Below, piece after piece: positions 27,279 to 30,502 of a stretch of DNA of 34,725 bases. The translations under genes and the position numbers were made by a program. The stretch comes from Corallococcus praedator. GTDB taxonomy: Bacteria > Myxococcota > Myxococcia > Myxococcales > Myxococcaceae. How positions within the stretch are numbered: position 1 is the stretch's first letter; every line of letters starts with the position of its first letter. The notes under the pieces were generated by a model that saw nothing but the letters and a program-made list of their open reading frames with translations, ran no database searches and was not told the DNA's origin. Where the stretch lies: NCBI RefSeq assembly GCF_003612125.1, contig NZ_RAWI01000054.1:1-34725 (forward strand). The letters are read 5' to 3'.

Positions 27279-28082
27279 TCAGGGCGGTGGGGACGCGCGG
27301 CCCATGGGAATCACCAGCGGGCCGGGCAGGTCCGGCCGCGACACCACCTCCACGCGCAACCCGAAGGTGTTCGCGATGAGGTCCGGGGTCAGCACGTTCG
27401 TCGGGGTGCCTGACTGCACGCACCGGCCCTGGTCCAGCACCGCGATGCGGTCCGCATAGCGCGCGGCCAGGTTCAGGTCATGCAGCACGGTGAGCACCGC
27501 GCCGCCTTCGTGCGCGAACGCCCGCGCCCGCTCCAGCACCAGGTGCTGGTGGGAGAGGTCCAGGCTCGCCGTCGGCTCGTCCAACAGCAGGTAGCGGTGG
27601 CCGTGCACGGGGGGCGTCCACAGTTGGGCCAGCACGCGCGCCAGTTGCACGCGTTGCCGCTCGCCCCCTGAGAGCGTGGTGTACGCGCGCGAGGCCAGGT
27701 GCTGCGTGTCGGTGGCGTCCAGCGCGGCGCGGGCCACCGCCAGGTCGGACTCCTCGCCGCCTCGCCGCGCGTGGGGGCTGCGCCCCAGCACCACCACTTC
27801 CAGCGCGGTGAAGCCGAAGCCCAGCGAGGACTCCTGGAGCAGCACACCCAGCCGCTGCGCGCGTTCCGCCAGGGGCCACTGGTGCAGCGCGCGTCCTTCC
27901 AGGAACACGTCGCCGCTCTTGCAGCGCAGCTCGCCCGACAGCGCGGCCAGCAGCGACGACTTGCCCGCGCCGTTGGGGCCCACCACGGCCAGCACTTCGC
28001 CGGGCTTCACCTCCAGCGACAGCGGTCCCGCCACGCGCCCGCGTCCACGCCACACCTCCACGTCGCGCGCCTCAAGGCTCAT
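27279..28082 (-). CDS. hmuV: Heme ABC transporter ATP-binding protein HmuV
   Basis: 267 aa ABC ATPase that powers heme import through HmuU. Walker A is GPNGAGKSS, Q-loop LLQESS, signature LSGGERQRVQLARVL, Walker B YLLLDEPTASLD and the switch His lies in TVLHDLNLAARYADRI. The C-terminal part (PTNVLTPDLIANTFGLRVEV) is typical of HmuV/FecE-type proteins. ATG 28082 has AAGGAGG four bases upstream, inside the 3' end of the repeat ORF. That ORF overlaps this gene by 11 bases. This is the last gene of the heme operon. Confidence 0.93.
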   Translation of the reverse strand: MSLEARDVEVWRGRGRVAGPLSLEVKPGEVLAVVGPNGAGKSSLLAALSGELRCKSGDVFLEGRALHQWPLAERAQRLGVLLQESSLGFGFTALEVVVLGRSPHARRGGEESDLAVARAALDATDTQHLASRAYTTLSGGERQRVQLARVLAQLWTPPVHGHRYLLLDEPTASLDLSHQHLVLERARAFAHEGGAVLTVLHDLNLAARYADRIAVLDQGRCVQSGTPTNVLTPDLIANTFGLRVEVVSRPDLPGPLVIPMGRASPPP

Positions 28083-28097
28083 ACCGCCTCCTTGCGC
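28071..28097 (-). repeat. Right flank repeat: hmuV start region, copy A
   Basis: This 27-base stretch around the hmuV start (GCGCAAGGAGGCGGT, then ATGAGCC, then TTGAG, on the minus strand) matches copy B at 28534-28560 at 23 of 27 positions. It carries the hmuV ribosome-binding site and first codons. Confidence 0.75.
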
Positions 28098-28545
28098 GCC
28101 GCACGCGCTGGGGTGGCCGGCATGCGCGCACGGAGGCCAGCTCCGTGTCGGATGAACCTGAGAGCACTCGGGTCCTCTGCGCGGAACGCGAGATGCCCGC
28201 CACTGGAGTCGCGTCACGAGCCTCCGGGCTCACGCGGGCCCTCTGTCCAGAGCGGGTGATGCCTGCCGGTACGCCCGTGACGAAGGTCGGGTCCATGTCA
28301 CGTGTCGCCGGACGCACGCGGATCCATTGCATGAACCGCTTGATGCCAGTCGGTGTCCCCGTGACGACGGTCGAGCCCGCATCACGTGCCTCTGGACTCA
28401 CGCGGGCCTTCTGTCCGAAGCGCGTGAGGCCTGCCGGCGCGTCCGTGACGACGGTCGAGCCCGCGTCACGTTCCTCTGCGTGCATGCGTTCGACCGGCGC
28501 ACCCGCCTCGGAGTCCTGCTCCAACGAAGGTGACTCCGGGCTCAT
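28072..28545 (-). CDS. 28-aa-repeat ORF between hmuU and hmuV, function unknown
   Basis: 157 aa. The ATG at 28545 overlaps the hmuU stop (ATGA) and has an AGGGGG site; its end overlaps hmuV by 11 bases, so it can be translated within the operon. The centre repeats a 28-residue unit: RDAGSTVVTDAPAGLTRFGQ, RDAGSTVVTGTPTGIKRFMQ, RDMDPTFVTGVPAGITRSGQ, then a shortened RDATPVAGISRSAQ; each is followed by a piece like KARVSPEA. There is no signal or membrane segment. The tail is Arg-rich. The same DNA is open in another frame on the plus strand (28145-28576), so coding is not certain. It may be a non-coding array that happens to be open, or a real repeat protein. It has no counterpart in hmu operons that I know. 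Confidence 0.5.
   Translation of the reverse strand: MSPESPSLEQDSEAGAPVERMHAEERDAGSTVVTDAPAGLTRFGQKARVSPEARDAGSTVVTGTPTGIKRFMQWIRVRPATRDMDPTFVTGVPAGITRSGQRARVSPEARDATPVAGISRSAQRTRVLSGSSDTELASVRACRPPQRVRRARRRYEP
28214..28488. repeat. 84-bp tandem repeat array
   Basis: Three full copies of an 84-bp unit start at TCACG at 28214, 28298 and 28382, and a partial fourth at 28466, so the period is exactly 84 bases. Copies 1 and 3 are closest (for example CTCACGCGGGCC and CCTGCCGG in both), copy 2 is more diverged. A truncated copy lies just before, about 28153-28213. The period is a multiple of three, keeping frames open on both strands. Confidence 0.9.
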
Positions 28546-28560
28546 GCCGCCCCCTTGCGC
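28534..28560 (-). repeat. Left flank repeat: hmuU end/repeat ORF start, copy B
   Basis: This stretch reads GCGCAAGGGGGCGGC, then ATGAGCC, then CGGAG on the minus strand. It holds the hmuU stop codon, the start of the repeat ORF and its ribosome-binding site. It differs from copy A at four positions. The pair brackets the 84-bp array. Confidence 0.75.
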
Positions 28561-29627
28561 GACAGCAGCGCGATGAAGGCCGGCACGCCCAGCACGGAGG
28601 TAAGCGCCCCCACCGGCAGCTCCGACGGCGCGGCCAGCGTGCGCGAGAGCAGGTCCGACGCCAGCAGCAGCGACGCTCCTGTCAGCGCGGACGCCGCCAG
28701 CAGCCGCCGGTGATCCGGCCCCAGCGCCATGCGCAGCAATGCGGGCACCAGCAGGCCCACGAAGCCAATCATCCCCGTGAAGGCCACCGCCGCCCCCACG
28801 CCCAACGCCGCGGAGAGGATGAGCCGGCGCTTGAGGCGCTCCACGTCCACGCCCAGGTGGTACGCCTCGCGCTCGCCCAGCAGCACCAGGTTGAGCGCTC
28901 GCGCCTCGCGCAGCACCAGGCCCAGCGTGAGCAGCAGCGGCACCGCCGCGGCACCCACCGTCTCCCACGACCCGCCGCCCAGGCTGCCCAGGCTCCAGAA
29001 GGTGATGGAGCGCAGCTGCGCGTCCGAGGCCGCGTGGGTCAAGAGCCCCATGCCCGCGAACGCCCCCGCGCTCACCGCCACGCCCGACAGCAACATGCGC
29101 GGCGTGTCCGTCCTGCCTCCCCCCGTGCCCAACCGCTGGGCCAGCAGCGTCGCGCCCAGCGCGCCCAGGAAGGCCGCGCCCGGCACCACCAGCATGCGCA
29201 GCGCGCCCATCTGCATCCCCAGTGTCACGTCCAGCACGATGGCCAGCACCGCGCCCAGCGCCGCGCCACTGGAGGTGCCCAGCAGGCCCGGCTCCACCAG
29301 CGGATTGCGGAAGAGCGCCTGGAGCGCGGCCCCCGTCGTCGCCAGCACCGCGCCCACCATCATGCCCAACAGCACACGCGGCAGGCGGAGGGTGAACAGC
29401 ACCGCGCGCTGCGTGGTGTCCATCCGTTGGGAGGCCTCGCCCAACCCCAGTGCCTCCCAGAGGCTGCCAAGGATGGCGGCCGGAGGCACCGGCACCGTGC
29501 CTATGGCCAGCGACGCGAGCACCACCAGCGCCAGCACCAGGCTCAGCGTCACCCAGGGCCTCACGCCCGGAAGCCGTGAAGGCACCGGACGCGCGGCGGA
29601 CACGGGCATGGCCTCCGACGCGCTCAT
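28542..29627 (-). CDS. hmuU: Heme ABC transporter permease HmuU
   Basis: 361 aa inner-membrane permease of the BtuC/FecCD/HmuU type. About ten hydrophobic helices are visible, starting with VTLSLVLALVVLASLAIGTV. Family marks are RLPRVLLGMMVGAVLATTGAALQALFRNPLVEPGLLGTSSGAALG at about 75-125 (named by position), the cytoplasmic coupling segment RREAY-like GEREAYHLGVDVERLK, and GFVGLLVPALLRMALGPDHR. It forms the heme channel as a dimer with HmuV. ATG 29627 overlaps the hmuT stop (ATGA). The gene ends in AASTOP overlapping the repeat ORF start. Confidence 0.93.
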   Translation of the reverse strand: MSASEAMPVSAARPVPSRLPGVRPWVTLSLVLALVVLASLAIGTVPVPPAAILGSLWEALGLGEASQRMDTTQRAVLFTLRLPRVLLGMMVGAVLATTGAALQALFRNPLVEPGLLGTSSGAALGAVLAIVLDVTLGMQMGALRMLVVPGAAFLGALGATLLAQRLGTGGGRTDTPRMLLSGVAVSAGAFAGMGLLTHAASDAQLRSITFWSLGSLGGGSWETVGAAAVPLLLTLGLVLREARALNLVLLGEREAYHLGVDVERLKRRLILSAALGVGAAVAFTGMIGFVGLLVPALLRMALGPDHRRLLAASALTGASLLLASDLLSRTLAAPSELPVGALTSVLGVPAFIALLSRKGAA

Positions 29628-30502
29628 TTGCCGCCGCCCTTCCCTGCCGCCGGCAACACCCCGTCCTGCAGGCGCCCCACGGCCCGGCCCAGGCCCGGCC
29701 CCAGCCCCATGAAGTCCACGTCCTCCACCGTGACGAGCTTCCAGCCCTTCACCTGCGACAGGCCGGGCTGCTTCGACAGGCCCTCCGCGCCGCCCACCGT
29801 CTCCACCGAGCCCGCGGGCAGCAACACGAAGTCCGGCGCCGCCGCCACCACGGCCTCCGCGCTGAGCGGCTTGTAGCCCTTCAGCTCCCCCACCGCGTTC
29901 ACCGCGCCCGACAGCCGGATGAGCGTGTCCGCCACCGACCCGGAGCCCGCCACCATCATCGTGCCCGCGCCGCGCGCGTACACCGCGAGGATGCGCGGCG
30001 GCTTCGCGCCCTTCAGCGCCGTCACGCGGCCGGCCGCCCGGGCCAGGTCCTCGTCCAGCTTCGCCACCAGCGCCTTGCCCTGGTCCGGCGTGCCCAGTCG
30101 CTCCGCGACGGTCTGGATGCGAGCGCGCGCCGCGTCCACCGTGGGCTCGTTGGCGAACGTCTCCACCTGCATGCCCGCCTGCTTCAACTGCTCCAGCACC
30201 GCGGGCGGCCCGGCCTCCGCCGAGCCCAGCAACAGGCCCGCGCCCAGCGACAGCACCCCTTCGGCCGACAGCGCGCGCTGGTAGCCCACCGTGCGCACCT
30301 TCGACGCCTCCGGCAGCGCTCCGCTGGAGTCGTCCACGCCCACCACCCGGTCGCCCGCGCCCAGCGCGAACACCGTCTGCGTGATGGCCGGCCCGATGAC
30401 CACGAGCTTCGGCGCGGCCTTCTTCGGCTCGGGCGGCGCCGCGTGCGCGGACAGCGCGAACAGCGCGCAGACGAGCCCCCACTTCGAAGCCGTGCGCCTC
30501 AT
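29624..30502 (-). CDS. hmuT: Periplasmic heme-binding protein HmuT
   Basis: 292 aa with a signal peptide (hydrophobic LVCALFALSAHA, cleavage near AAP). It has a periplasmic binding-protein fold of the BtuF/ShuT type: LVVIGPAITQTVFALGAGDRVVGVDDSS, VGYQRALSAEGVLSLGAGLLL, LAVYARGAGTMMVAGSGSV and LIRLSGAVNAVGELKGYKPL (all consistent with HmuT). It would pass heme from the receptor to HmuU. ATG 30502 overlaps the hmuS stop. The C-terminus is Gly/Lys-rich (GKGGGK). Confidence 0.9.
   Translation of the reverse strand: MRRTASKWGLVCALFALSAHAAPPEPKKAAPKLVVIGPAITQTVFALGAGDRVVGVDDSSGALPEASKVRTVGYQRALSAEGVLSLGAGLLLGSAEAGPPAVLEQLKQAGMQVETFANEPTVDAARARIQTVAERLGTPDQGKALVAKLDEDLARAAGRVTALKGAKPPRILAVYARGAGTMMVAGSGSVADTLIRLSGAVNAVGELKGYKPLSAEAVVAAAPDFVLLPAGSVETVGGAEGLSKQPGLSQVKGWKLVTVEDVDFMGLGPGLGRAVGRLQDGVLPAAGKGGGK

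Follow-up and report, generated by a model that had tools for sequence, protein, structure and literature searches.

The origin of orphan genes and small proteins in bacterial operons is an open question, often because the intermediates do not survive. A locus of Corallococcus praedator raises this question in a concrete form: in the window, namely the whole 34,725-nt stretch of contig NZ_RAWI01000054.1 analysed here, an ORF that consists mostly of a tandem repeat is inserted between hmuU and hmuV of a putative heme importer operon. Where did such a gene come from, and what keeps it in the operon?

A repeat-encoding ORF between hmuU and hmuV

The genes concerned all lie on the minus strand of the window and comprise a hmuT-like gene for a substrate-binding protein (29,624-30,502; 292 aa), a hmuU-like permease gene (28,542-29,627; 361 aa), and hmuV for a heme ABC transporter ATP-binding protein (27,279-28,082; 267 aa), with hmuT overlapping hmuU by a 4-nt ATGA. 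HmuV passes the NCBIfam heme ATP-binding model NF010068 with 309 bits (cut-off, 261), whereas HmuU matches models of the BtuC/FecD-type permease (E down to 8e-71) and HmuT those of substrate-binding proteins (IsdE, BtuF, and others) in all cases below the curated cut-offs. An earlier note on this DNA had spoken of a heme transporter operon; this wording thus stands as far as HmuV is concerned, and for the other two proteins the label “heme” rests on HmuV and the gene order. No relatives of HmuV were found in viral contigs.

The inserted ORF encodes 157 aa and occupies 28,072-28,545 on the minus strand. The earlier note gave this length correctly, but its interval of 28,153-28,545 leaves out the last 81 bases. 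In the same strand at 28,210-28,476, TRF detected a tandem array with a period of 84 nt, i.e., 28 codons (3.2 copies, 71% matches, score 294), which makes up most of the gene; among the 39 rows that TRF returned for the window, the second-highest score was 82. The pentamer TCACG recurs at 28,214, 28,298, 28,382, and 28,466 exactly as the earlier note had described, and the 84-nt array proposed from this spacing is real. Also, a repeat search recovered three 111-nt copies that are spaced by exactly 84 nt, together with a looser 37-nt repeat family whose fourth copy lies 66 nt away; the first of the 111-nt copies shares 69% and 77% identity with the other two.

The ORF was further claimed to be coupled to both of its neighbours, and it does overlap the two of them. 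Its start codon shares ATGA (28,542-28,545) with the TGA of hmuU, giving a 4-nt overlap, and its 3' end overlaps the start of hmuV by 11 nt (28,072-28,082, ATGAGCCTTGA), where the ATG of hmuV is located at 28,082 and is preceded by the Shine-Dalgarno-like AAGGAGGCGGT (28,083-28,093). The start within the ATGA of the hmuU stop recurs in all three genomes that we found to carry the array. As the earlier note also observed, both strands are open across the array: a plus-strand frame of 143 aa (28,145-28,576) spans it. The third codon positions of this frame are those of the sense frame, and it therefore provides no independent coding signal.

Distribution of the insert among relatives

Relatives were sampled in the genus (16 Corallococcus genomes, 14 of which have hmuV; no hmuV was detected at E 1e-60 in the other two, G011 and G008), in the family (27 of 76 genomes matching), and in the genus of one further carrier, G095 (25 of 27 genomes matching); the genome of the window is G000 in these comparisons. 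The hmuU/hmuV junction could be read at 46 loci in Corallococcus and its relatives. Of these, 39 were bare with an overlap of exactly 4 nt, including two distant paralogues (L042 and L043, with HmuV 44% identical), and seven carried an insert, so that hmuU and hmuV are normally adjacent just as had been supposed. The 14 junctions of Corallococcus are divided into eight bare ones, three with the array (G000, G007, and G012), and three with much smaller ORFs, which we call mini-ORFs. The length of the insert differs in each of the seven genomes; in the three array genomes, hmuU and hmuV are separated by 459, 492, and 393 nt, and the inserts measure 463, 496, and 397 nt, all differences between them being multiples of 3. 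At the neighbouring hmuT/hmuU junction, a plain in-frame NTGA overlap was found in 39 of the 42 readable loci (the end of hmuT was not found in four of the 46), and the three exceptions were G108 and the two distant paralogues.

In a tree of concatenated hmuU and hmuV covering 22 of the 46 loci, the array genomes and the mini-ORF genomes each formed a clade with a support of 100, and G095 represented a separate third group; in a tree of hmuV only, the array clade was not recovered and G012 was placed outside. On the concatenated tree, parsimony gives three putative gains at hmuU/hmuV and another at hmuT/hmuU in G108. Instead of separate gains, a single old gain followed by several precise losses is conceivable, because flanking repeats would permit clean excision.

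Duplicated junctions in related genomes

The inserts of the relatives were compared with the ends of the adjoining genes, and the scores were ranked against 977 segments of the window and 159 NTGA gene ends from G006; in the comparisons with hmuU 3' ends, ATGA was added to query and null alike. In G095, which belongs to another genus of the same family, a 158-nt insert at hmuU/hmuV provides an ORF of 53 aa that is composed of a HmuV N-terminus and a HmuU C-terminus and is ATGA-coupled on both sides. The first 50 nt of this insert are identical to the 5' end of its own hmuV at 46 positions, and positions 44-162 (with ATGA) are identical to the 3' end of its own hmuU at 107 of 119; none of the 977 window segments scored as high in either comparison. 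The two matches join at a short shared GGCG. The insert of G095 is a young duplication of the junction.

The mini-ORFs in Corallococcus are 28-32 aa long and all ATGA-coupled; G009 and G006 have one each, and G010 has three in tandem. In G010 (L022), the tandem copies of 86, 95, and 86 nt correspond to mini-ORFs of 29, 32, and 29 aa (MSREA...AA), forming a chain from hmuU through the three mini-ORFs to hmuV, in which the ATGA closing each ORF opens the next. The 3' ends of the mini-ORFs in G009, G006, and G010 match the hmuU 3' end at a level reached by none of the 977 window segments and none of the 159 gene ends in each case. A comparable insert is present at hmuT/hmuU of G108 (L066, 300-419), where 116 nt encode a 39-aa ORF with ATGA coupling at both ends. 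This insert matched the hmuT 3' end of two of the three tested relatives (0/977 and 0/159 each) and was at chance level against the third, G112 (124/977), and against its own hmuT (288/977).

All seven single units have a length of 2 modulo 3, namely 95, 83, 86, 95, 86, and 158 nt at hmuU/hmuV and 116 nt at hmuT/hmuU of G108, and such a length preserves the chain of ATG/TGA start and stop codons. These seven are not independent draws, because they stem from about three events and five of them share one ancestry.

Origin of the array in the window

In the window, the last part of the insert (28,079-28,144, minus strand) resembles the 3' end of its own hmuU: over about 65 nt, 52 of 65 positions are identical with a score of 47, which was attained by none of the 977 and none of the 159 null segments (maxima, 33 and 27, respectively). 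This stretch is thus a hmuU 3' end that was copied and has diverged. BLASTN with the window insert also hit the hmuU 3' ends at the empty sites of G014, G005, and G002 (E 3e-4, 6e-4, and 0.0145); two further matches, at C44 of G012 and C13 of G010, were dismissed as chance ones because the DNA around them contains long open frames of an unrelated kind. Among all seven inserts, six outscored every one of the 977 and 159 null segments in the match to the hmuU 3' end. The exception, G007, showed a weak match, with null segments as high in 22/977 and 4/159 against the hmuU of G015 and in 272/977 and 54/159 against its own. A match to the hmuV 5' end was significant only in G095, and the other six inserts were within the null.

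The repeat units themselves were examined with a profile of the junction built from the eight empty sites of Corallococcus. This profile matched the window insert at 405-467 (E 0.018) and, within the array, at 259-334 (E 0.008; 28,212-28,287, minus strand), where profile positions 20-97 cover the stop/start point; the best background value was 0.099. Two more stretches followed in the 84-nt register at 109-166 (E 1.0, alone not significant; 28,380-28,437, minus strand) and 213-254 (E 4), both within the background. With a profile of all 39 empty sites, the window units did not stand out, their best values being 0.27 and 0.45 when the background reached 0.12. In a direct alignment, the 84-nt unit spans positions -45 to +25 of its own junction, with a gap of 2 nt, and 14 of 977 null segments scored as high. 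The corresponding counts for the other ten of the 11 junctions tried were 4 in G014, 9 in G005, 14 in G002, 42 in G003, 117 in G015, 283 each in G004, G001, and G013, 746 in G095, and 909 in G085. At the protein level, the likeness of the array ORF was weak to both the HmuU tail (40 of 1000 shuffles as high) and the HmuV head (170 of 1000). The array inserts also have a weak likeness to the mini-ORFs of the sister genomes, the best null counts of 980 being 12 for G000, 3 for G007, and 15 for G012.

We hence consider that the new gene probably arose by tandem duplication of the hmuU/hmuV stop/start junction, an origin that the earlier note had not noticed, as the similarity of its 3' end to hmuU suggests; on weaker evidence, the array units may also be copies of the junction, of which we are less sure than of the 3' end.

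Foreign DNA, either a mobile mini-repeat as the earlier note had listed among its options or a captured gene, might instead have been inserted exactly at the stop/start overlap. Its patchy occurrence, at three of the 14 Corallococcus loci, would fit such an insertion, but the product of the ORF has no second copy in its own genome beyond a chance-level match (E 0.6), and the matches of the insert DNA that were listed at other sites of the 16 genus genomes are short and weak (best E, 9.8e-5). When a genome collection was scanned for the array family, two contigs were hit, those of Corallococcus terminator CA054A and a Myxococcaceae MAG, both at this same locus and both already counted within the three array genomes. 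Given also the hmuU-like 3' end of the insert and the native junction duplications in related genomes, we regard a foreign origin as very improbable, and the mobile mini-repeat is not borne out.

Coding and selection

The other options that the earlier note had raised were a coding repeat and a regulatory array, and here the first was upheld: the frame is kept in all three carriers, the length differences between their inserts are all multiples of 3, and the changes are biased to synonymous ones. In two of the three comparisons among the array proteins, pN/pS was 0.38 and 0.35, and none of 400 neutral simulations was as low at each of three kappa values; in the third, pN/pS was 0.63, with 7, 13, and 13 of 400 simulations as low. 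The neutral simulations averaged 0.93-1.03. The sense frame shows an excess of changes at third positions in all three pairs, the two shifted forward frames give dN/dS of at least 0.93, and the antisense frame that shares the third positions mirrors the constraint of the sense frame. The adjoining hmuU and hmuV are under stronger constraint (dN/dS 0.05-0.26). These patterns indicate that the array protein is under purifying selection with a conserved frame. In the mini-ORFs, pN/pS ranged from 0.19 to 2.58 over ten pairs and fell between 0.55 and 1.14 in eight of them, a loose constraint; the frame seems to matter in the array and the mini-ORFs alike and the amino acid sequence mainly in the array protein.

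A regulatory array of DNA or RNA, composed of binding sites or an attenuator with an incidental open frame, would be in keeping with the regular 84-nt spacing and with the plus-strand frame that is open as well. The third-position excess of the sense frame and the dN/dS values of the shifted frames nonetheless speak against it, as do the length differences in multiples of 3 across the three genomes, and we see hardly any room for this explanation.

The selection on the array protein bears on another possibility: the 157-aa protein could serve the heme importer as a specialised accessory, such as a disordered partner of HmuU/HmuV or a heme-handling repeat protein, so that its function rather than the coupling keeps the ORF in place. 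The pN/pS values under the neutral ones in all three comparisons would be expected of such a protein, and so would the well-conserved C-terminal half, which ends in RRARRRYEP in all three. However, searches of Pfam at E values up to 1 and of NCBIfam at E values up to 0.001 gave no match to the ORF, and its AlphaFold model from an input of three sequences displayed no confident fold (mean pLDDT 48, pTM 0.10). Moreover, the protein is missing from 11 of the 14 hmuUV loci in Corallococcus, and the mini-ORFs of the sister genomes drift over the wide pN/pS range given above. An accessory function as the reason for retention is thus rather unlikely in our view, though it is compatible with, and not exclusive of, an origin from the junction.

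Less probable still is a neutral passenger, i.e., an expansion by slippage at the junction that has no function and persists until it is lost. The nearly free drift of the mini-ORF sequences and the seven different lengths in seven insert genomes are what such a passenger would produce, but the array protein evolves below the neutral rate, all seven single units obey the length of 2 modulo 3, and the frame is intact in all three array genomes.

Proposed course and retention

Based on the duplication of the junction, the following course can be envisaged. In the ancestral state, hmuT, hmuU, and hmuV would have been chained by 4-nt NTGA stop/start overlaps. The junction, comprising the hmuU 3' end with its Shine-Dalgarno sequence and the hmuV 5' end, would then have been copied in tandem in the lineage that led to the window; when the copied length is 2 modulo 3, such a copy would give a small ORF with a HmuV-like start, a HmuU-like end, and ATGA coupling on both sides. 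Repeated duplication would add more units, and a deletion of 2 nt would then have converted a stop-containing unit of 86 nt to an open one of 84 nt (0 modulo 3). The 2-nt gap in the alignment of the unit with the junction would accordingly mark the point at which the hmuU frame was brought into the hmuV frame. As 84 nt is 0 modulo 3, the internal stops are out of frame, and the units can be read as a single ORF made of 28-aa repeats. This ORF overlaps hmuV by 11 nt (-11), in contrast to the -4 of the mini-ORFs and the ORF of G095. The array protein would have gained some sequence constraint at a later time. We infer the order of these steps, the origin of the unit heads from hmuV, the translation of the ORF, and the reason for its retention.

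As to the last point, ribosomes leaving hmuU would translate the insert and then restart at hmuV by termination-reinitiation; the array ORF itself would thereby be translated. According to a review, the NTGA (-4) spacing is by far the most common in coupled genes, and of the two models put forward for the coupling, one is reinitiation (PMC12548453). Most likely, then, the insert would be retained as an ORF that hands ribosomes over from hmuU to hmuV, with any in-frame insert being tolerated. Such a hand-over would make in-frame inserts harmless and explain the length rule.

It should be added that hmuV also has a good Shine-Dalgarno sequence of its own. Duplex energies, calculated with an assumed anti-Shine-Dalgarno tail, were -10.9 to -11.9 in six of the seven insert genomes and -8.9 in G010; of the eight empty Corallococcus sites, seven had -11.0 and the eighth, that of G001 (L020), had -4.0. 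A better Shine-Dalgarno sequence for hmuV as the benefit of the duplication was thus discarded, there being no consistent gain in these energies.

Two further observations concern the sequences around the insert. In G009 (L018), the Shine-Dalgarno-like sequence is weakened ahead of the insert ORF (-6.2) and strong ahead of hmuV (-11.9). Also, the C-terminus of HmuU is altered in two array genomes (RGRGMA in L010 and RRGTA in L011), compared with ARKGAA at seven of the eight empty Corallococcus sites; it is as if the HmuU tail had been freed once it no longer encoded the ribosome-binding site of hmuV.

Generality and significance

For an estimate of how common such duplications are, we scanned 800 kb of G006, divided into 40 pieces of 20 kb of which one had been picked for hmuUV, for inserts of up to 260 nt, a limit that the window insert exceeds. 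Among 2551 ATGA pairs, two reached 33 of 52, namely hmuU/hmuV, at a distance of 2 modulo 3, and another at 0 modulo 3. Ten of 5468 GTGA pairs reached 33, and the best 14 were all at 0 modulo 3, like repeats inside genes. These 800 kb and the window together yielded 66 filtered simple NTGA junctions and 46 sandwich candidates with 11 chained mini-ORFs, of which only that at hmuU/hmuV was clearly a junction duplication (null 0/1000). Another of the NTGA-chained ORFs, of 50 aa (L088, 2169-2318, in G006), showed a doubtful match to the 3' end of its upstream gene (22/1000; 20/977 and 5/159). Clear junction duplications are therefore rare in this 800-kb sample, which is small and in which only recent events are detectable.

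Tandem duplication of NTGA junctions could nonetheless be a general way, as yet without a name, in which genes are born within operons, an extension that we put forward tentatively and with less confidence than the origin of the gene in the window. The copy would bring a ribosome-binding site, a start, and a stop, and its length would decide the outcome: separate micro-genes at 2 modulo 3, and one repeat protein at 0 modulo 3. The locus would show the stages side by side, since one operon of one bacterial family presents the junction in its bare form, as a young duplication, with one mini-ORF or a chain of three, and with a fused repeat protein. This suggests that a new ORF could be expressed from its birth by inheriting a coupled start site, and it leads to a concrete prediction on the insert length modulo 3 that is applicable to any genome collection. 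The hmuUV locus lets one see a way in which genes may be created within bacterial operons.

Comparison with known systems

Coding minisatellites and tandem-repeat proteins are likewise built of in-frame tandem units, with copy numbers varying between species; in the present case, however, the likely source of the repeat, a gene junction, is traceable. Small proteins are also known from heme-uptake operons in the form of HemP/HmuP, from which the array ORF is set apart by having no match to a family model, not by an alignment.

In the literature searched, which consisted mostly of non-subscription papers, no title described the duplication of a junction as a source of genes. The NTGA motif of coupled genes (PMC12548453) is what hmuT/hmuU, hmuU and the insert, and the chains of mini-ORFs have in common. 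The word “duplication” does not appear in the text of that review, whereas here the motif itself would have been duplicated into new ORFs; furthermore, the array ORF overlaps hmuV by -11 and not by the -4 of NTGA-coupled genes. The birth of bacterial genes through fusions of distant genes, brought about by deletions, is described in another report (PMC12803068), and there, as here, a new ORF is made from pieces of existing genes. Unlike those fusions, the process proposed here is a tandem duplication of the overlap between two neighbours that leaves both parents intact. We propose the term “junction-duplication gene” for this kind of gene, and the most suitable interpretation of the element between hmuU and hmuV is that of a young gene derived from the junction of its neighbours.
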